34,922 nucleotides of DNA from Campylobacterales bacterium. GTDB lineage: Bacteria; Campylobacterota; Campylobacteria; Campylobacterales; Sulfurimonadaceae. Position numbers and translations under genes: made by a program. The notes under the pieces were generated by a model, which was not told the origin of the DNA, made no database searches, and saw nothing but the letters and a program-made list of their open reading frames with translations. Where the stretch lies: the NCBI GenBank assembly GCA_026390165.1, contig JAPLGM010000001.1:1-34922 (forward strand), read 5' to 3'. Positions 8,767-34,922 of the stretch are shown here, one piece after another (within the stretch, counting starts at the first letter, position 1; each line of letters begins with the position of its first letter).

Positions 8767-8881
8767 TCCTCTTTATAGGCGATTAGCCACCGATTTACCG
8801 AAAAGATTTTGAGGTATTTAAATTAAGTAAGTATAGAATAGGTTAAAATAGCATATTATTTTTTATGACAAGAATGAAGAA

Positions 8882-8991
8882 GAAAGACTCCCCATCAGAT
8901 ACCTGCGGCACAAAGTAGGTCTAGGTGTGCTGCTGTATTCCTACCCTGACACGATGTCTAAGCATACCTTTGCACAGGTCTAATGAAGAGA
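8882..8991 (-). ncRNA. ffs: signal recognition particle RNA (4.5S, small bacterial type)
   Basis: On the minus strand the segment 8950-8929 reads GTCAGG, then GTA-GGAA-TAC, then AGCAGC. This is the SRP helix-8 signature: a GGAA tetraloop closed by three pairs above the symmetric CAGG/AGCA internal loop that binds Ffh. The flanks pair: CUCUUCAU (8990-8983) with AUGGGGAG (8895-8888), then AGACCUG with CAGGUAUCU, and CAAAG with CUUUG. A minus-strand CATAAT -10 at 9003-8998 places the start near 8990. Ends are estimated from pairing. Confidence 0.85.
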
Positions 8992-9065
8992 ATTCGCATT
9001 ATGCCTACCTTTAGCTTATGATACAATTAGGGCAAGAGAGAAAATACGAATACGGGAGAGCTATT

Positions 9066-9374
9066 ATGATCGATTTAGGTGTCGATGAGTGGACGCAAAG
9101 GGAGTATTTAACGGCCAAAAATATGTTAGAATCACGAGGGGTGAGTGTCGTATTGGTGGATACTATTCTCAATCCAATAGAGGGGGTGGAGACACTCCTT
9201 TTTAACCCTCCCCAGATGCGTGAATATCCACAAGGGAGCGTGTTCGTCTTTTATTGTTATAGCGGTAAAGGGACGCTTTCACGATTAGAGGAGTTTCGTA
9301 AAAAATTTCCTAACCATGTGTGTATTAGTTTACGAGGGGGGAGCGGGTATTGGCGCAAGAATTATCATTTATAA
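9066..9374 (+). CDS. rhodanese-like domain protein (tentative)
   Basis: The 102-residue protein has a possible rhodanese fold. YCYSGKGT resembles the active-site loop that follows the catalytic cysteine in sulfurtransferases, and the C-terminal CISLRGGSGYW matches the usual last strand and loop of that domain. It is shorter than a typical single-domain rhodanese and lacks an obvious Arg in the loop. I chose ATG 9066 because GGGAGAG precedes it; the in-frame ATG at 9018 has no SD and overlaps the ffs promoter region. The next gene overlaps its end by 25 bases, suggesting one operon. Confidence 0.55.
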   Translation: MIDLGVDEWTQREYLTAKNMLESRGVSVVLVDTILNPIEGVETLLFNPPQMREYPQGSVFVFYCYSGKGTLSRLEEFRKKFPNHVCISLRGGSGYWRKNYHL

Positions 9375-9688
9375 CGCAGGCGTGTGAAGCGTTTTTCCTC
9401 TCTCTCAATGAAGAGCGTTATTACGATGCCCATGAGGATTTAGAGGCACTTTGGTTTCCCAGACGTTTTGAGGATGACGACGAGGTGAAGCTATGGAAAG
9501 GGTTTATCAATGCTGCGGTGTGTTTTGAATTAATCAAAAAAGGTCGTCAACAAGCATCCCAGACCGCATGGAAAACTTATTTAAAATATAGCCCCCTTTT
9601 AGAGAACCTTGTTACTCCTCATAAAGAACTATACGTTAGAATAAACGAACTTATTCAAAATCGGAGAATACAATGTCCCAATTCCTAG
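9350..9688 (+). CDS. DUF309 family protein
   Basis: The 112-residue helical protein carries the DUF309 core YYDAHEDLEALW (H-x3-E-x2-W pattern) followed by KLWKGFINAAVCF, a segment shared by the family. Biochemical role is unknown. The start is TTG at 9350, preceded by GGGGGAGCGGG, and overlaps the previous gene by 25 bases. The nitroreductase start at 9673 overlaps its end by 16 bases, so three to four genes here appear coupled. Confidence 0.75.
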   Translation: MAQELSFITQACEAFFLSLNEERYYDAHEDLEALWFPRRFEDDDEVKLWKGFINAAVCFELIKKGRQQASQTAWKTYLKYSPLLENLVTPHKELYVRINELIQNRRIQCPNS

Positions 9689-10293
9689 AAGCGATGGCGT
9701 TTCGTCACGCGTGCAAGCAGTTTAATAGTGAAAAACAAATCCCCAGTGAGCAGTTTGAGTCTATGCTAGAGGTAGCACGAACCTCCCCCTCGTCGTTTGG
9801 AATGGAGCCGTGGAGACTTATTATTGTCAGGGATCCGAAATTGCGCAAAGCCCTCAAATCCTCTTGCTGGAACCAAAGCCAGATCACAGAGTGTTCCGAA
9901 CTTGTTATTTTCACCACCGACAATGATATTGTCCGAAGCGACTCTCCCTACGTGCGTAAAATGTTTGAGCGTCGGGGGATGAGCAGTGAAATAGTTGATG
10001 CCTATATGGGGGTTTATAAAAACTATCTCTCTCCTATAGAAGCGGATGAGGAACTGCTCGAAAATTGGACAGCAAAGCAGTGTTATATCCCCCTTGCCAA
10101 TATGATGACATTTGCTGCGACCCTCGAAATCGACAGCTGTCCGATCGAGGGGTTTGACAAAGAGGGTGTTGAGGCTATTTTGGATCTCGATTATGGTCGA
10201 AGTGTGGCGGTGATCTGTGCCTTTGGGTATCGGGTAAACCCTCAAAGTGAACAAAAACGGCTTGAGTTAAAACAAATCGTTGAATACCGTTAA
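9673..10293 (+). CDS. NAD(P)H-dependent nitroreductase family protein
   Basis: The 206-residue protein is a nitroreductase-fold flavoprotein. The N-terminal FRHACKQFNSEKQIP and RTSPSSFGMEPWRLIIV blocks form the FMN-binding start, QCYIPLANMMTFAATLEIDSCPIEGFD is the central family signature, and AVICAFGYR is the late strand. It is similar in outline to the oxygen-insensitive NfsB/RdxA group. The likely reaction is two-electron reduction of nitro compounds or quinones with FMN; the physiological substrate cannot be read from sequence. Confidence 0.88.
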   Translation: MSQFLEAMAFRHACKQFNSEKQIPSEQFESMLEVARTSPSSFGMEPWRLIIVRDPKLRKALKSSCWNQSQITECSELVIFTTDNDIVRSDSPYVRKMFERRGMSSEIVDAYMGVYKNYLSPIEADEELLENWTAKQCYIPLANMMTFAATLEIDSCPIEGFDKEGVEAILDLDYGRSVAVICAFGYRVNPQSEQKRLELKQIVEYR

Positions 10294-10306
10294 GAGTTGG
10301 CTTAAT

Positions 10307-11131
10307 ATGATAGTTCAAAAAATGGAGCATTATACCGATCTCATACTACAGTATAGTACAGAGTATGGATTAAAAATTTTGGGTGCAATTGCCATCTTTT
10401 TTATCGGAAAATGGATCGCCCGCAAAGCTATTTTTCTCATGGGCAAAGCCATGGAGAAAGCGCATGTCGATGCAACCCTCATCTCTTTTTCCAGTAATGT
10501 TGTTTATGTTGCCCTTATTCTCGCTATCGTCGTCGCGGCAACAAGTAATTTAGGGGTTAATACTTCCTCCTTTATTGCCATATTCGGAGCAGCTGGTTTG
10601 GGAATCGGACTTGCCCTTAAAGATACCCTTGCCAATGTCGGAGCAGCGGTGCTCATCATCTTTTTCCGCCCTTTTAAAGTGGGGGATTCGATCGAAGTCT
10701 CTGGAGTCATGGGGACGGTACACGCTATTAATCTCTTCTCTACCACCCTCACGACTGCTGATAATCGCTCTATTATTATCCCCAATGGGACGTTGGTTGC
10801 GGGAAACATCATCAATAATACGGGAAATAAAGAGCGTCGTATTGATATGACGTTTGATATTGACTATAAAAATGATCTCAAAGTGGCAAAAGAGCTGATT
10901 ACGCACGTGCTTGAAGGACATCCAAAAGTTTTAAAAGAACCTATTTTTACGGTTGCTGTAGGGGCGTTGGCTCCGACCTCCGTTCAACTATATGTGCGTC
11001 CATGGGTGCTTACCGAAGAGTATTGGGAGGTCCGATTTGAACTGATTGAAGCGATAAAACTGGAATTCGATAAACACGGGATTAGCGTCCCTTTCCCACA
11101 AATGGTTACTCATGTGAAGCAGGATGGGTAG
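10307..11131 (+). CDS. small-conductance mechanosensitive channel, MscS family
   Basis: The 274-residue protein has three N-terminal membrane segments, a glycine/alanine-rich TM3 (FIAIFGAAGLGIGLALKDTL) that lines the pore, then the beta domain (FRPFKVGDSIEVSG, IIIPNGTLVAGNIINN) and the C-terminal FDKHGISVPFPQMVTH. It opens under membrane tension during osmotic downshift. ATG 10307 is preferred over the TTG at 10280, which lies inside the nitroreductase gene. A second, broken copy of its C-terminus lies 2.7 kb downstream at 13862-13927. Confidence 0.92.
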   Translation: MIVQKMEHYTDLILQYSTEYGLKILGAIAIFFIGKWIARKAIFLMGKAMEKAHVDATLISFSSNVVYVALILAIVVAATSNLGVNTSSFIAIFGAAGLGIGLALKDTLANVGAAVLIIFFRPFKVGDSIEVSGVMGTVHAINLFSTTLTTADNRSIIIPNGTLVAGNIINNTGNKERRIDMTFDIDYKNDLKVAKELITHVLEGHPKVLKEPIFTVAVGALAPTSVQLYVRPWVLTEEYWEVRFELIEAIKLEFDKHGISVPFPQMVTHVKQDG

Positions 11132-27990: not shown

Positions 27991-28078
27991 GGACAGTTGG
28001 CCGAGTGGTCGAAGGCGCACGCCTGGAACGCGTGTATAGGGCAACCTATCTAGGGTTCGAACCCCTAACTGTCCGCCA
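27991..28078 (+). tRNA. tRNA-Ser (GGA)
   Basis: The 88-base sequence folds as a class II tRNA with acceptor arms GGACAGT and ACTGTCC, discriminator G and encoded CCA, anticodon loop containing GGA, a long variable arm, and a T loop GGTTCGAACCC. The anticodon reads serine UCC/UCU codons. Its 3' end is part of the attL repeat of the genomic island that follows. Confidence 0.97.
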
Positions 28079-28111
28079 TCATACCCTTTAACCCCCTCTA
28101 ATACAGTCTAA
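28073..28111 (+). repeat. attL of the island (39-bp direct repeat)
   Basis: The 39-base segment starting CCGCCATCATACCC and ending ATACAGTCTAA covers the last six bases of tRNA-Ser plus 33 bases beyond. It is identical to 32717-32755. Similarity extends a little on both sides with one gap or mismatch. Together they bound about 4.6 kb that contains an integrase. Confidence 0.93.
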
Positions 28112-28202
28112 ATAACCTCTCAAAACTCCATAAAATAGGCACTTTAACCCCTAATTACCCTCTAATAGCGTCTAATCCCATTTAATACAATCCACTTTCT
28201 TA

Positions 28203-28262
28203 ATGTAGTTTTTTATGTAGTTTTGTAATAATGACCTCTAATGTAGTTAAAATAACCTACAT
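28203..28262 (+). repeat. ATGTAGTT repeats near attL (possible integrase arm sites)
   Basis: Three direct copies of (A/T)ATGTAGTT and one inverted AACCTACATT lie between attL and the integrase start. The same repeat occurs twice near attR (32638-32660). Pairs of short direct repeats at both island ends fit arm-type integrase binding sites. The intervening DNA also repeats CTCTAATA-N2-GTCTAA. Confidence 0.55.
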
Positions 28263-28277
28263 TGCAAAAGGGATAAT

Positions 28278-29570
28278 GTGGCTAATAAAAAAGTATCACC
28301 GCTTACCGATACCGAAATCAAGAACGCAAAACCAAAAGATAAAAAGTACACTCTATCCGATGGGAACGGCTTACAGCTCCTTATTAAACCCGATGGTAAG
28401 AAGATATGGGAGATACGCTACACCATTGACGGGAAACCAAAAGCTACTACAGCAGGAACCTACCCGACCGTATCCCTCAAGCAAGCAAGAGAAAAGCGTG
28501 ACGAACTCAAAGTAAAAGTTTCCACAGGTGTTGACCCCATCCAAGAAAAAAAAGAGATCAAGGCAATTGTCAAACTTGAAGAGGAAAAAATCGAAGCGTT
28601 AGAAAATATGCAGTTTCATAAAATAGCCTATGAGTGGTTATCAACTCTCACAGTGGTGGAAGTTACCGCTATAAAAAAGAAGAGAGACTTTGAGCGTGAT
28701 ATTTTCCCCTATTTTTGCACGTATGACGAAAACCATAATCTCATCTCTTCCAAACAAATAGGGGAGATCACACACGGTGAGCTAATGAGAGCCATTACCC
28801 AAAAAGCGAAGACGACAGCCGACACCGCTAAACGTCTCTTTGCTGATTGTGTGAGGTTGTGGACGTATGCAGTGAGTCACGAATACGCCGACATCAACAT
28901 CACCCACAAAATAGATAAAAGCGTTGTCCCTAAAACTGAAAAAAAGAACTTTGCAAAAATAACCGATGAGAAAATATTAGGGGAACTTTTGAGAGCCATT
29001 GAGGTTTACAAAGGAGACGGGGGAATAATCGTTAAAAATGTTTTACGCTTCGTGACGTTGCTACCTTTGAGAGCTGAAAATCTTTGTACTCTCAAATGGG
29101 AGAGTGTGAATTTTGAGAAAGCGATTATCACGATACCACGCTCAGAAATGAAAGTGAAAAATAAAAACTTATCCGATTTTATCCTCCCTCTCCCTCATCA
29201 AGCAGTATCTATTCTCAAAGAAATCCAAGCAATAACGGGATGGGGCGTGTGGGTATTTCACGGGGCTAGAAATAATAAAGTACACGTCAACAAAGAGTCT
29301 GGAAACAAAGCACTGCGCATAATGGGTTTTGTCGATGAGGTAAACGGACGTAAACAAACGTTACACAGCTTTAGGGGTACATTCCGATCATTGACCGAAA
29401 CATACGCCACACAACACAAAGCGTCCTTTGAAGTAAGAGAGCGTTGCATAGATCATAACGAACGAAACGAAGCAGTAAGAGCCTACACCCACAAAGCCGA
29501 TTACACCGAACAAATGAGGGAATTATTGCAATGGTGGGCGGATTATTTGGATGGGGTAAAAAAAGCATAA
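28278..29570 (+). CDS. tyrosine site-specific integrase (P4/DUF4102 type)
   Basis: The 430-residue integrase has the N-terminal DUF4102 arm-binding domain (LTDTEIKNAKPKDKKYTLSDGNGLQLLIKPDGKK...), a SAM-like core-binding domain at about 105-205, and the catalytic domain. The catalytic Arg is in LPLRAENLCTLKW, HSFRGTFRS supplies the HxxR box, and DHNERNEAVRAYTHKADY contains the second His and the nucleophile Tyr. Such integrases insert islands into tRNA 3' ends. It begins with GTG at 28278, after AAAGGGA, 200 bases from attL. Confidence 0.95.
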   Translation: MANKKVSPLTDTEIKNAKPKDKKYTLSDGNGLQLLIKPDGKKIWEIRYTIDGKPKATTAGTYPTVSLKQAREKRDELKVKVSTGVDPIQEKKEIKAIVKLEEEKIEALENMQFHKIAYEWLSTLTVVEVTAIKKKRDFERDIFPYFCTYDENHNLISSKQIGEITHGELMRAITQKAKTTADTAKRLFADCVRLWTYAVSHEYADINITHKIDKSVVPKTEKKNFAKITDEKILGELLRAIEVYKGDGGIIVKNVLRFVTLLPLRAENLCTLKWESVNFEKAIITIPRSEMKVKNKNLSDFILPLPHQAVSILKEIQAITGWGVWVFHGARNNKVHVNKESGNKALRIMGFVDEVNGRKQTLHSFRGTFRSLTETYATQHKASFEVRERCIDHNERNEAVRAYTHKADYTEQMRELLQWWADYLDGVKKA

Positions 29571-29923
29571 AAGCTATTTATACGTTTAAGTTTCGGACTT
29601 TAAAAAGAGCCATATACATCTAATAAACCCTAATTATAGGGGTTTATATTCAATTAGACTACATTATAATATTCAGCTATAATTATCTTCTTCATTTCAC
29701 CATTTTATTACATAGGTTATTGAAACCAATTCACATGCAACGTAACAGAAATTAGATCAATATTTCAATGCCAAAAAAATTGGCGAAATATTCAGGCGTG
29801 GAATTTTCCACATACTGACTAATTGGCAAAAAAATGTAATTATGGTGAAGACCTATTTTCTAATATTTTGAGCCTTTATTTTTAGTCTAATGCGTTTAAC
29901 ACAACGCAATAGGAGTTAATACA
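29571..29923. promoter_or_regulatory. non-coding region with nested inverted repeats
   Basis: This 353-base AT-rich gap between integrase and the AlpA-like gene has no credible ORF. It contains an outer inverted repeat (TTCACCAT...ATTACAT at 29696-29713 with 29834-29849), an inner hairpin (AATATTTC...GCCAA with TTGGC...AAATATT, 29759-29792), and a short dyad GTGGAA-TT-TTCCAC at 29798-29811. TGCGTT/AACGCA forms a small stem just before the AlpA SD (29891-29908). It is probably a regulatory switch region or origin; this is inference. Confidence 0.5.
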
Positions 29924-30106
29924 ATGGAAGAATTTAAACGAGTGGACGGAGTGTCCGATTATCTGAAAGTATCCCCCGCTACAGTTTGGCTATACAGCAA
30001 GCAGGGGAAAATCACCCCTATTAAATTATCACCACGTGTGACCGTATGGGCTAAATCTGATTTAGACGCATTTATCGAACGTGCAGTTATGGGGGTTGCG
30101 GTATGA
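29924..30106 (+). CDS. AlpA-family HTH protein (excisionase/regulator)
   Basis: The 60-residue protein has a winged helix-turn-helix: VSDYLKVSPATVWLYSKQGKITPIKL then VTVWAKSDLDAFIER, the pattern of AlpA and MerR-like excisionase regulators found with P4-type integrases. It probably controls integrase expression or acts as recombination directionality factor. SD TAGGAG is 8 bases upstream. Its stop overlaps the next start (ATGA). Confidence 0.85.
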   Translation: MEEFKRVDGVSDYLKVSPATVWLYSKQGKITPIKLSPRVTVWAKSDLDAFIERAVMGVAV

Positions 30107-30348
30107 AATGCAAAGATCAATTATTGCTCATCCTTGAATTACAAAATGAGATAGACGTAGCAAAGATACTCGATCATCAGGATGCTATCCCGACATTCAC
30201 TATGATACAAAACCGTATCTTTACAGTACAAAGCGTTATCCCAAACGATAGTACGTTTTGCAAAATCCTCGATCATTTAGGGGGAGACATTCAAGCGATA
30301 CAAGATGAGTTATGCAAGAACCTCAAATGGGATGGAATTCAGCTATGA
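30103..30348 (+). CDS. small island protein of unknown function
   Basis: The 81-residue protein is acidic, largely helical, and lacks any motif I recognise. It overlaps its neighbours on both sides (ATGA at 30103 and 30345), which strongly supports translation as part of a three-gene unit with the AlpA-like and winged-helix-like genes. Confidence 0.65.
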   Translation: MKCKDQLLLILELQNEIDVAKILDHQDAIPTFTMIQNRIFTVQSVIPNDSTFCKILDHLGGDIQAIQDELCKNLKWDGIQL

Positions 30349-30608
30349 GTACAACACACAAAGCGAAAATTCTCTCAACTATCATGCAATCAGGGGCAAA
30401 AACAGCGGCGAATTTTAATATCTCCAATGGGAACCAATACATGATCGAATTGGAAAAAGAGGGAATAATTTATAGCTACTGGATGCAAGACGGAAAAAAG
30501 CGTTTTAAGCTCAGAGATATTTTTAATCATACCAAGGCAAACGCATTTTTAAAAAAATATCGTGAGTCTCAACAAGATCAAGTGAAAGCACCCGATGATA
30601 CCAAATAG
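30345..30608 (+). CDS. small winged-helix-like island protein
   Basis: The 87-residue protein, from ATG 30345, has a possible winged-helix outline: AKILSTIMQSGAKTAANF, NGNQYMIELEKEGIIYSYWM, then a wing-like DGKKRFKLRD. It could be a DNA-binding regulator. The start is fixed by the ATGA overlap with the previous gene; an upstream ATG at 30312 in this frame lies inside that gene. No specific function can be assigned. Confidence 0.6.
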   Translation: MSTTHKAKILSTIMQSGAKTAANFNISNGNQYMIELEKEGIIYSYWMQDGKKRFKLRDIFNHTKANAFLKKYRESQQDQVKAPDDTK

Positions 30609-30617
30609 GGATAATGA

Positions 30618-30690
30618 ATAATCACTCCATTTCGGGGTGATGAAACTCTCAAAAACGCCTCTTAAGGTTCAAAAAAGTACACGGTATAAT
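30618..30690 (+). promoter_or_regulatory. hairpin after the alpA operon and a following promoter
   Basis: ATCACTCC and GGGGTGAT form a stem at about 30618-30637 after the last gene of the operon, with no T-run. A TATAAT -10 at 30685-30690 could begin a leader for the gene at 30894; a short 20-codon ORF in that leader (start 30750) has no convincing SD. Confidence 0.4.
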
Positions 30691-30893
30691 AGAGTCTAAT
30701 ACCATCTAAACGTTGGATGAGGTTAAGGAGTAAAAGAGATACCCAAAAATGAGCCTCTATCCACGGTGGGACTGGGTTTTGTTTGAGGTCGTGAAAATGC
30801 CGAAATAATGCACTTTAAGAAAACCCTCCCGTAGTGTACCCCTCTAAGAATTATAAAATCTAATATCAAGAGAAAAGAAAAAGTGGGTCGATT

Positions 30894-31547
30894 ATGCGAA
30901 AAATACTCGAAGAGATAGAAAATTTCCTCAATGATTTTAACCAAGATCACGGGATAGATTTTGCAATCGACACCATCCGTATTCAATTCAATAAAGAACA
31001 CAAATTGAAACATCTTCAAAAATTAGGTGCGTGGAATAAGATCACCCTATCCTCTAACATTTCCTCAAAGCTCAAAAAGAGACTCAAAGAGGATGAAATC
31101 ACATCAGCCTATCAGCTCAACAAAGAGAATGTTTACTATTTCAATAGCAATATTGACCGCCCTCGTTACAACATAGCAGTAATGGTTATCTTCGGAATGA
31201 AACAATACACCTCAACACCTCCAAACAATGCCACCATCAAAAGCATTGTAAGCACTCTAAGAGACGTTTCAAGTATTGACGTATGTTACGACACGCCAAC
31301 ACCTCCAACGCTTGAAGAGCTATCAAAGCGGTTTAATCTCACTCACTTTAAAGATAGTGTGTACATCAACACACCCAACATTTCAATGATTGAGAAAATA
31401 ATCGTCTACAACAAAGCAATCAAGAACGGGTTAATCGCTCCATTGTGGCGAATAGAGTTCACCATCTCGATACCAAACGTCAAAGTCTTAGCGATACCGC
31501 TCCACGATATGAAAGAGATCATAAACACCATCAGGGGGAACCAATGA
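30894..31547 (+). CDS. island protein, possible replication initiator (tentative)
   Basis: The 217-residue protein has no certain family. Its order of segments, IDTIRIQF near the start, SIDVCYDTPTPP in the middle and VYNKAIKNGLIAPLWRIEFTI near the end, resembles phage and plasmid Rep_trans/RstA-type initiators, which share an IDLA(F/Y)D-like strand, a YDK segment and an RxE strand. The catalytic His and Tyr motifs are not clear, so the assignment is weak. It is followed immediately by repeat-rich DNA that looks like an origin. A weak SD lies upstream. Confidence 0.4.
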   Translation: MRKILEEIENFLNDFNQDHGIDFAIDTIRIQFNKEHKLKHLQKLGAWNKITLSSNISSKLKKRLKEDEITSAYQLNKENVYYFNSNIDRPRYNIAVMVIFGMKQYTSTPPNNATIKSIVSTLRDVSSIDVCYDTPTPPTLEELSKRFNLTHFKDSVYINTPNISMIEKIIVYNKAIKNGLIAPLWRIEFTISIPNVKVLAIPLHDMKEIINTIRGNQ

Positions 31548-31660
31548 ACAGCAAACAGCGCAAAGCACTCGAAGCCAAAGCACAAAAGAAGATCAAGGCG
31601 ATAATGAGACAATACCCATTATTCAAAGATACGGCGATCACGGTCACTTTTAAGCAATAA
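31544..31660 (+). CDS. 38-aa basic protein, unknown
   Basis: The short lysine- and alanine-rich peptide (MNSKQRKALEAKAQKKIKAI...) begins with an ATGA overlap to the preceding gene and has GGGGG upstream, so translation is plausible. It has a basic helix followed by a short hydrophobic tail. No known family. Confidence 0.5.
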   Translation: MNSKQRKALEAKAQKKIKAIMRQYPLFKDTAITVTFKQ

Positions 31661-32480
31661 AGATACAACAACAAAAAAGACACACTTAAACCCCGTAATT
31701 ACTGTACTTTATAAACGAAAGGACACACTTAAAAAGCAACAGCAGAATTCAACAGTAACCGAACAAGCAAAGCCCCTCTACGACGAGATTAAGACAAGTT
31801 TCCGAACAAGGAATTCAACACCTATAAAAGAAAAAACAACGGCAAGATTACGGCAAGGGTTTGAGACTTTTAACCCTAAGGGAGAACGGTGAGGTTACGG
31901 TTAGGGTCAAAAGAAAAAGGGAACACAAAAGGAAACACTAAAAGGGAACAGCAAAATATGGGCGATATTATGAACACAAAGCGAATGAGCAAAGCCCGTC
32001 CATGAGGAGATTATCAGAGATAGTGAATAGCCAAATGAACACGTTAATGGGCATATAAAAATCCGATAAAAGTCCGATAGAAAATTCACGAGTTATGGGA
32101 AACTCAAAACCCCATTATGACGGGATTAGTAAGGGTTTCGGGTAAAAAAATTCACACCTAAAAAGGAGAGCGAAATTTTCCGCCGTCCGATAATTCACCA
32201 TTAAAGAGGAGACCGCCCCAAGTTTGGGGAGAGTGTAAAACATCAGAATTTTAATATCAGGATGATGCGCACAATTCCGTGCTTAAGTATTCCATAGAGA
32301 TAAGCGGGGAAGGAATCACAAAATTGTTAATTGTAAAGAGCGAAGTCTTGATTTAACTCTCCCTCACAGCCCCTACAAAGCCCGAACGGGTAACGGGGCG
32401 AACATTCCCACCTTTTGACGCTTTATATCCTCTCACATCACCCAAAAGAAAGCAATACAATCTAAAAATAATATGGTACA
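31661..32480. other. repeat-rich non-coding region (origin-like)
   Basis: No credible ORF. GACACACTTAAA occurs at 31679-31690 and 31722-31733. Three iteron-like 12-mers (AAAAGG(G/A)AACA(C/G)) lie at 31915, 31927 and 31940. A strong inverted repeat (CTTTTAACCCTAA with TTAGGGTCAAAAG) spans 31867-31913, and a CCCCA/TGGGG hairpin is at 32217-32229. Three related stretches (near 31775, 31998, 32111) share a GCAAAGCCC or AAAACCCC start and a GAGATTA or GGGATTA end. This fits a replication or transfer origin or a decayed region; it is unproven. Confidence 0.5.
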
Positions 32481-32482
32481 AT
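32477..32482 (+). promoter_or_regulatory. -10 element of the small RNA
   Basis: TACAAT preceded by TATGG lies about 7 bases before the predicted start of the RNA gene. No distinct -35. Confidence 0.6.
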
Positions 32483-32487
32483 TTCGA

Positions 32488-32569
32488 CGTATTCAAGATG
32501 CGACACTCTTTCCGTCTGATTAACGGATAGAAGAAACGGCGGTGGCTTAAGTGCCCCGCCTTTTTTTTT
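32488..32569 (+). ncRNA. island-encoded small RNA with intrinsic terminator
   Basis: A sequence of about 80 bases follows a TACAAT promoter and ends in a textbook terminator. It contains an inner hairpin (TCCGT...ACGGA) and then a terminator stem GGCGG, one bulged T, GGC, loop TTAAGT, GCC, CCGCC (32538-32560), followed by nine T. There is no ORF with SD. It lies near the right end of the island, close to attR. Family unknown to me; an antisense role in replication or phage interaction is only a guess. Confidence 0.65.
32538..32569 (+). terminator. intrinsic terminator of the small RNA
   Basis: An 8-pair GC-rich stem with one bulge and a six-base loop is followed by TTTTTTTTT. It is the strongest intrinsic terminator in the window. 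Confidence 0.85.
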
Positions 32570-32637
32570 GGCTAATTTTTAGCAGGTAGTAATCACCCCC
32601 GTGCTATCATCTTCAAAATTAGAGTCACTTTGACGCT

Positions 32638-32660
32638 AATGTAGTTTTTAATGTAGTTTA
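32638..32660 (+). repeat. ATGTAGTT direct repeats near attR
   Basis: Two copies of AATGTAGTTT are spaced 12 bases apart, about 60 bases inside attR, matching those near attL. They are candidate integrase arm sites. Confidence 0.55.
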
Positions 32661-32716
32661 TTTTTTACTACACCTCTAAAACCTCACAAAACAGGGCTTA
32701 GATGGGAGACTAACTG

Positions 32717-32755
32717 CCGCCATCATACCCTTTAACCCCCTCTAATACAGTCTAA
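32717..32755 (+). repeat. attR of the island (39-bp direct repeat)
   Basis: Identical over 39 bases to the attL segment at 28073-28111, which covers the 3' end of tRNA-Ser. Here the preceding TAACTG is the only further tRNA-like sequence, with one base missing relative to attL. It marks the right boundary of the island. Confidence 0.93.
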
Positions 32756-32781
32756 TTAACCTCATTTGCCTCTTTGTGACA

Positions 32782-34437: not shown

Positions 34438-34840
34438 GTTTTATCTTTATACATAGTCTTTCAAGCTCCGATACGAGTCTATGGCAGCCATTTGGCTAAC
34501 TGACATGCAGGTTTCAGCATGTCAGACTGTACTGCTATTCAAAAACGGATCAAGCGTTGAAAATATACTTATTTTTCTGACGTAGGGTTTAAATACCTGA
34601 CCATTTTTTTTATTATATCGGAATTAATGGACTTCGATTAAAATTGTTGTGAAGTATTCGTCATCATCTTTGTTAAATGGATTTGCGGTTGCAACTATCT
34701 TTGAATAATACGACAAATATAATTTCATAATTGGGTTAAAATTTGCTAGTGTTGATTGTGAAGATAACAGATAATGGCGTTTAGTAGCCCATTCCGATAC
34801 TAAGAACATTTATTGCTTATAGACCCTAAAAAGGCTAAAA
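34438..34840. other. intergenic region with a hairpin, no supported gene
   Basis: Between the diguanylate cyclase and the last gene I see no supported gene. A 9-bp inverted repeat (CTGACATGC, loop AGGTTTCA, GCATGTCAG) lies at 34500-34525, and a small AGCC/GGCT stem lies nearby. A minus-strand 61-codon frame (34809-34624) ends ANPFNKDDDEYF...IEVH and has no SD; it might be a gene fragment. Confidence 0.5.
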
Positions 34841-34922
34841 ATGACCAGAGATTTATTGACAATATTCCAAGAAGAGATATCAGAACAAGCACGAGAACAG
34901 GCAAGATCATATAGCTTACCAG
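34841..34922 (+). CDS. start of an unidentified gene (truncated by window edge)
   Basis: An ATG after AAAAAGGC opens a frame to the window end with 27 codons (MTRDLLTIFQEEISEQAREQ...). The short acidic, helical N-terminus is not enough to identify it. Confidence 0.5.
   Translation, partial: MTRDLLTIFQEEISEQAREQARSYSLP

Follow-up and report, generated by a model that had tools for sequence, protein, structure and literature searches.

What kind of mobile element is the small island found at a tRNA-Ser gene in a member of the Campylobacterales, and how would such an island replicate and spread? The window, i.e., the whole stretch of DNA analyzed, is 34,922 nt long (contig JAPLGM010000001.1 of assembly GCA_026390165.1, positions 1 to 34,922, forward strand) and contains a bounded, oriented and tRNA-targeted element of 4.6 kb. 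Because this island combines a tRNA-targeted integrase gene (int), an AlpA-type gene, a protein with a Rep_trans fold (Rep), precise attachment (att) sites and a backbone common to many relatives, it is reasonably, though not firmly, regarded as a minimal phage-satellite-like integrative element, akin to phage-inducible chromosomal islands (PICIs) and phage-inducible chromosomal minimalist islands (PICMIs), with a new family of Rep_trans-fold initiators. The original prediction had proposed either a satellite of minimal size which replicates itself or an integrative element, and this fits well; helper-dependent packaging would make the island a phage satellite in the strict sense.

The integration target is a tRNA-Ser (GGA) gene (27991..28078, plus strand), identified by ARAGORN and by Rfam (RF00005), the tRNA being the sole credible Rfam match. 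The island is delimited by a direct repeat, with attL at 28073..28119 and attR at 32717..32763 (both plus strand, 4,644 bp from copy to copy). The two copies share 46 of 47 bases, the first 39 bp being exact, which bears out the precise 39-bp identical attL and attR described originally and lengthens the match. The tRNA gene shares only its last 6 bp with the left copy, and the sequence leftward of attR, CTAACTG-CCGCC, corresponds to the tRNA 3' end minus one base. A further repeat pair near both island ends (TAATGTAGTTTTTTATGTAGTTT at 28201..28223 and a 96% identical copy at 32637..32659, both plus strand, from a repeat search) looks like integrase arm sites. The tRNA-Ser query was matched in 39 of 41 congener genomes. 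A strict empty-site junction was not found among the retrieved loci of other genomes, many of which contain the left flank and none of which has the right neighbor adjoining it.

The tRNA-Ser gene, the integrase, the AlpA gene and the small genes are all present as originally described. The integrase gene (28278..29570, plus strand, GTG start) encodes a tyrosine recombinase of 430 aa matching PF13356 (1.3e-25), PF22022 and PF00589 (2.5e-7), all three over cut-off, as well as phrog_1 in PHROGs (2.7e-47). The alpA gene (29924..30106, plus strand) encodes a 60-aa HTH_17 regulator or excisionase-like protein (PF12728, 4.1e-7, over cut-off; phrog_66, 1.3e-5).

The possible initiator of the original prediction is the 217-aa product of rep (30894..31547, plus strand), for which Pfam, PHROGs and PDB sequence searches gave nothing credible. 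An AlphaFold (AF2) model computed from the window protein and 24 relatives (pLDDT 89.7, pTM 0.86) has the fold of Rep_trans rolling-circle initiators, which fills the model from about residue 20 to the end and shows the curved sheet, like that of TATA-binding proteins (TBPs), with initiator topology. When this model was searched against the PDB with Foldseek, three entries for Rep_trans initiators supplied the chains in all of the top six rows (E 1.5e-7 to 8.5e-6), and the row below them came from an RNA polymerase III initiation complex (E 2e-3). VIA likewise returned Rep_trans structures with Z scores of 8.6, 8.4 and 8.1, values which are middling by themselves, the following rows (at most 7.3) being mostly TBPs; a likeness to TBPs has been described for the Rep_trans fold itself (PMC4797284). 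Sequence identity in the fold alignments is 12-15%, and the viral fold matches include one named Inoviridae Rep.

The catalytic residues point in the same direction. In RepDE, Tyr191 is the nucleophile and Asp46, Asp142 and Glu214 bind the metal; Arg140, Ala144, Asp146, Thr176, Tyr178, Gly180, Arg189, Lys193, Glu196 and Arg212 are also conserved, and these residues sit on strands 6, 9, 10 and 11 and on one helix (PMC4797284). The two proteins were paired across 25 sequences by motif order, spacing and strand order, and not by superposition. On this basis, RepDE Asp46, Asp142, Asp146 and Tyr178 correspond to Asp26, Asp129, Asp133 and Tyr157 of Rep, and Tyr191, Lys193, Arg212 and Glu214 to Tyr172, Lys174, Arg186 and Glu188, each present in 25/25 sequences. 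The core catalytic set, namely the metal triad (Asp26, Asp129, Glu188) with Tyr172, Lys174 and Arg186, is thus invariant. Position 155 is Thr in 24 sequences and Ser in the window protein, and a cysteine (Cys131; 24 Cys, one Ser) replaces RepDE Ala144. As for HUH-type Reps, no Pfam family exceeded its cut-off with Rep or its family members, a negative which leaves room for an HUH initiator, although the fold match points elsewhere. Judged from the model, Rep is a divergent family with a Rep_trans fold and core active site which falls outside PF02486 by profile. The earlier statement that no protein besides the integrase and AlpA is recognizable no longer holds.

The module to which rep belongs recurs widely. 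When 298 genomes of the order were searched with the Rep protein, 20 of them, counting the own genome, gave a match at E<=0.01, and these represent 14 of 81 genera; three matches are weak (E 4e-4 to 3e-3) and may be false. A single degenerate peptide pattern scanned over an 84,980-species collection retrieved 29 loci (cited below by L numbers), all labelled as Campylobacterota or its members except for one metagenome-assembled genome labelled Mollicutes, which is taken for mis-binning. The profiles used to count genes were built from seeds picked by eye in these same loci, which makes the counts partly circular; a rep open reading frame (ORF) was found in 27/29 loci (L063 and L064 lack it). 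In these 27, int lies upstream of rep in 26 (the exception, L044, is on a contig which begins 1.7 kb before rep), alpA is present in 26 (it is absent from L059, whose rep is broken), and both genes together form the leading zone in 25. Among the divergent ones tested, Pfam backed seven of seven integrases and three of three alpA genes, one alpA being below cut-off. The boundaries were searched in 25 relatives with int. Ten have direct repeats (15-30 bp) that begin within the 3' end of a tRNA or tmRNA gene, with spans of 4.3-10 kb (among these, L061 and L062 carry the same label, Campylobacter concisus); two others have a 26-27-bp repeat at another site, three have shorter or arm-like repeats only, and ten gave no repeat of at least 13 bp. 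The succession of int, alpA, small genes and rep therefore recurs at tRNA genes of other Campylobacterota, as the original prediction had suggested checking. In a tree of Rep proteins, the Sulfurimonas locus L047 grouped among Sulfurovum and unplaced Campylobacterales sequences (support 99/98), a position consistent with transfer; the window protein is on a long branch and its placement is unsure.

The 240 bp before rep (30654..30893, plus strand) form a conserved intergenic region, a candidate origin and rep control region. This region was aligned for 22 elements, namely the window, three congeners and 18 of the 27 loci; nine loci were omitted, among them L045, in which the stretch is coding. 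Fifteen columns are invariant, of which the start codon accounts for two. A TTAAG box is followed at about promoter spacing by TATAAT or TACAAT. The region also contains a second box, TTTAAG, as well as a C-rich/G-rich hairpin and, in many elements, TCTAA repeats. It may contain the origin, and the hairpin is a weak candidate for the nick site. A consensus promoter scan of the window listed ten sites compared with 12.8 expected, the pre-rep box not being among them.

Direct-repeat boxes of the form TCTAATRNNRTCTAA are found both in this region and at the island ends. Box 1 lies in attL (28097..28111, plus strand), box 2 stands 64 bp beyond it, before int (28161..28175, plus strand), box 3 is upstream of alpA on the minus strand (29654..29668, one mismatch), boxes 4 (one mismatch) and 5 overlap at the rep promoter (30685..30709, plus strand), and box 6 lies in attR (32741..32755, plus strand). 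With at most one mismatch, there are six boxes in the island and none in the other 30 kb of the window; a looser form occurs 12 times inside and three times in the 30-kb flank. Taken by itself, TTAAGNTTNAAAAAA is no commoner in the window than chance would give. In L041 and L055, an att-side pair with the same 64-bp step is accompanied by a box at rep (five boxes inside and none outside in L041, four and none in L055), while L103 has six inside, three outside and a different step. The idea that the boxes track the AlpA type was not confirmed: a second class, TTCCTTACAATTCC, is found at rep in L037 and not at its att sites.

From this arrangement, a mechanism can be proposed. A helper phage would raise the level of AlpA, which in one E. 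coli PICI is an activator required for induction (PMC6092414). AlpA would then bind the TCTAA boxes, both those in attL and attR and those preceding int, alpA and rep, and would thereby make excision coincide with rep expression. Rep would nick an origin within or adjoining the conserved pre-rep region and initiate rolling-circle replication, and the resulting concatemers would be packaged by the helper machinery; in some sister elements, a protein resembling the terminase small subunit (TerS), which has no counterpart here, might assist in this. The fuller proposal is that of a rolling-circle phage satellite family, so far in Campylobacterota only, with its own Rep_trans-fold initiators missed by profiles. 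In such a family, one AlpA-type protein would link excision with initiation through TCTAA repeats phased at 10 bp, and elements within one genome could swap their replication zone for a primase-helicase cassette. This proposal is put forward tentatively, its chances being slightly short of even.

Sister elements were traced in the own genome and genus from the non-coding part of the island (31548-32716). In the own genome, L095 is located at a tmRNA gene and its integrase is 79% identical to that of the window; this element (L095:5528-12335) contains a second tyrosine recombinase (8825-9940) and no recognized Rep. Two other contigs of this genome, C14 (L098) and C4 (L099), carry a DUF5906/VapE helicase-primase directly upstream of a TerS-like gene, near tRNA-Met and tRNA-Leu, and have end sequences in common with the window island. 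The congener loci L103 and L104 have int, rep and a TerS-like gene pair, together with an alpA-type ORF in L104 and alpA-like DNA in L103, which also holds a 451-aa gene where the window is non-coding (31661..32489). In both, the pair lies between blocks equivalent to window positions 31653 and 31671/31672, about 19 bp apart in the window; the window copy, which has no TerS-like gene, therefore lacks exactly that pair. Among the 27 loci with rep, a small helix-turn-helix (HTH) gene which may be TerS-like follows rep in nine and falls into four sequence classes. The class of L043, L047 and L048 matches phrog_309 (terminase small subunit; 2.7e-4, 9e-4 and 1.5e-3), while those of L041/L056 and of L037 gave no terminase match in PHROGs. 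In addition, phrog_3746 (terminase large subunit) is matched over its N-terminal part by L099 (3.7e-4) and L103 (0.015). Packaging genes are thus suggested, and not established, in this element family.

Several results weigh against the satellite-like reading or one of its steps. Relatives of Rep were found neither in phage records nor, by pattern-limited scans, in IMG/VR, and TerS-like proteins were found neither with three queries in phage records nor with three in IMG/VR (again pattern-limited). When a resident helper was sought in the own genome with phrog_2, a single terminase fragment of 41 positions was all that emerged, other terminase families being untried. No terminal overlap indicative of a circular contig, and hence no sign of an extrachromosomal form, was seen in 11 loci on short contigs, which represent eight distinct whole contigs (two under two names) and the partial L050. 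Regarding Rep itself, RepDE Gly180 and Glu196 are changed to Asn159 (23 Asn, two Lys) and Lys177 (25/25), Arg140 and Arg189 have no counterpart (Ser/Asn/Glu and Ile/Val/Thr/Cys/Tyr are found there), and the Rep_trans profile PF02486 matched neither Rep nor 15 family members and found nothing in the host genome; over 120 genomes of the order it gave three weak matches, all below cut-off. In folding energy, the pre-rep hairpin is only slightly better than shuffled sequences (mean z -1.2, 6/22 elements under -2, z +0.7 in the window). Shuffled sequences contained 0.23 TCTAATRNNRTCTAA boxes on average and none of 100 reached six, a contrast which is overstated since the pattern was picked after viewing the window. 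Box enrichment is weak or absent in 12 of 16 scanned elements (L037, L038, L042, L049, L052, L053, L056, L057, L061, L095, L104 and L109). Finally, PHROGs supports only three of the nine TerS-like genes under E 0.01, and one TerS-like protein modelled with AF2 gave a structure too poor for a fold search (pLDDT 55.8). The L039 gene matches GerE (LuxR-type HTH) over cut-off and sigma-factor-like PHROGs, that of L060 reaches phrog_3218 (terminase small subunit) at 0.019 only, and that of L049 gave nothing of note in PHROGs or Pfam, so this class can equally well be a regulator.

Some of these gaps invite other explanations. If the Rep_trans-fold protein were a MOB_T-like relaxase, the island would be an integrative mobilizable element whose circle is mobilized by a conjugative element and not packaged by a phage. 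MOB_T relaxases are indeed relatives of Rep_trans proteins (PMC11389934), and the failure of the pattern-limited scans to find a viral contig with Rep, that of the phrog_2 search to reveal a resident helper prophage and the weak support for TerS would all suit such an element. However, MOB_T combines a Rep_trans-like domain with an HTH domain (PMC11389934), whereas Rep has only 217 aa and its Rep_trans-like fold starts at about residue 20; moreover, the DUF5906/VapE modules of sister elements, a Sie-like gene and some of the TerS-like genes suggest phages, and plasmid records contain no match to Rep. This explanation is held to be unlikely. A rolling-circle plasmid or filamentous-phage-like replicon which acquired an integrase, replicates by itself and moves without the help of a specific phage (by natural uptake, vesicles or generalized transduction) would account for a fold resembling that of pT181-type plasmid Reps and of one Inoviridae Rep, and for a window copy devoid of a TerS-like gene. 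Coat or plasmid-stability genes, for their part, were not recognized in Pfam and PHROGs searches of the window proteins, an absence that counts in favor of this replicon too. Yet the order of alpA, int and rep and the tRNA sites follow a PICI-type island plan and no terminal overlap marks a circular contig, which makes such a replicon quite improbable.

The island might also be a decayed satellite, formerly packaged by a helper, which no longer spreads alone after the loss of cargo and of its TerS-like pair. This would be a sub-case of the satellite-like reading, whose chances overlap with it, and it is considered a minority possibility. It is favored by the TerS-like pair of L103 and L104, located between blocks that nearly adjoin in the window, and by a small RNA (sRNA) block, described below, without the peptide ORF that L095 and L096 have. 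On the other hand, the backbone genes are all open, the att sites are near-identical and the arm repeats are kept, and PICMIs are reported to spread without TerS (PMC10803314).

The remaining parts of the island are small. An 81-aa ORF (30103..30348, plus strand) overlaps the alpA stop and is a backbone gene, with DNA-level homology in L104 and profile matches in L038 and L040, two loci which also seeded that profile. It is followed by an ORF (30345..30608, plus strand) overlapping its stop, whose start was moved from that of a 98-aa ORF to 30345 (87 aa) because an ATGA overlap with the preceding stop results. This second small backbone gene, whose profile matches occupy the same place in relatives, has no Pfam or PHROGs family above chance, and its product is perhaps a winged-helix protein. 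A conserved 38-aa ORF (31544..31660, plus strand) overlaps the rep stop (ATGA) and follows rep in 17 of the 27 relatives. The non-coding stretch 31661..32489 (plus strand) includes alignment blocks at 31672-31735 and 32237-32351, and no open frame above 60 aa lies wholly within 31661-32716. AAAAGGGAACAC repeats at 31915-31955 in this stretch are candidate iterons.

The stretch is followed by an sRNA-like block with a terminator (32490..32575, plus strand; fold z -2.8), diverged copies of which are present at three places in the own genome (L095:11880-12335, L096:150-680 and L097:8080-8330) and one in a congener (L106). In L095 and L096, the block precedes a Shine-Dalgarno-like sequence and an ORF of 20 codons, missing from the window copy, which would encode a hydrophobic peptide; block and ORF look like part of a type-I-toxin-antitoxin-like module. 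The window block thus looks like a remnant of a multicopy sRNA and hydrophobic-peptide module which is fuller elsewhere in the genome. The suggestion that the small genes or the RNA encode a new function is unsupported, the former being backbone genes of the relatives and the latter a probable module remnant. PADLOC gave zero matches among ten proteins.

In relatives, the region after rep carries toxin-antitoxin genes (YefM/YoeB in L052, L053 and L058; a nucleotidyltransferase/HepT pair in L042) and, in L049, a gene for a protein which is Sie-like by PHROGs (phrog_8545, 1.8e-15) and tRNA_anti-like by Pfam. At a tmRNA gene in L056 (5252-12759), two integrases flank one rep element, probably as tandem elements. 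In L050, a rep of the family lies about 4 kb from a minus-strand gene (9393-10676) for a large terminase (phrog_3717, 3e-66), which is read as a phage beside a satellite-like element. At the end of the window, positions 34783-34920 are identical to L098:5-142, with which a different contig of this genome starts; this repeat probably broke the assembly there.

Among known systems, PICMIs of Vibrionaceae are the closest functional model of the island. Like it, they are very small, have int, AlpA and one replication protein as a core and contain large non-coding parts; no TerS was found in their prototype, and packaged, rolling-circle-like concatemers were reported (PMC10803314). They differ by a primase, a fis integration site, at most one element per genome and complete members only in Vibrio (PMC10803314), whereas the present element has a Rep_trans-fold initiator, belongs to Campylobacterota, is found at tRNA-Ser and has relatives at varied tRNA and tmRNA sites, several in one genome. 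Primase, the replication protein of PICI/PICMI-type satellites, is replaced in the island by the Rep_trans-fold protein, primase-type genes being found in sister elements only. Gram-negative PICIs are ordered into an integration zone (int, AlpA), a variable zone, a replication zone and late genes, sometimes with terS (PMC6092414, PMC10111431). The DUF5906 replication genes of the sister elements recall them, but PICIs, as described in these accounts, span 10-20 kb and have a primase, unlike this 4.6-kb island with its rolling-circle initiator and no late gene.

P4-type satellites have a tyrosine integrase at tRNA genes, and psu is one of their genes. An AlpA/Vis-type protein is a further likeness; the six window proteins differ in lacking an alpha-type primase-helicase (Pfam, PHROGs), and no sid/psu-type gene was recognized in the island. 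With the Rep_trans initiators (pT181-family RepD/RepDE, RepSTK1 and filamentous-phage Reps; PMC4797284), Rep shares fold, strand order, metal triad, Tyr, Lys and Arg; compared with RepDE, it is too short for a separate DNA-binding domain and sits in an integrative island. Rep-Arvir of archaeal viruses is likewise a Rep_trans-like family visible by structure only (PMC13107129); it is archaeal and larger, with other partners and an origin hairpin downstream of its rep, according to the same source.

An account of Campylobacterota phage satellites, or of a satellite with a Rep_trans-type initiator, did not turn up among the open-licence PMC papers listed by the searches, and the island belongs to an apparently undescribed family present in many Campylobacter-related bacteria. 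Its six genes offer a small system for testing the minimal requirements of a satellite. If the satellite-like reading is true, it adds an initiator family invisible to sequence profiles and implies that a plasmid-type rolling-circle initiator can serve as the replication module of a tailed-phage satellite, which would directly explain the head-to-tail concatemers used for packaging.

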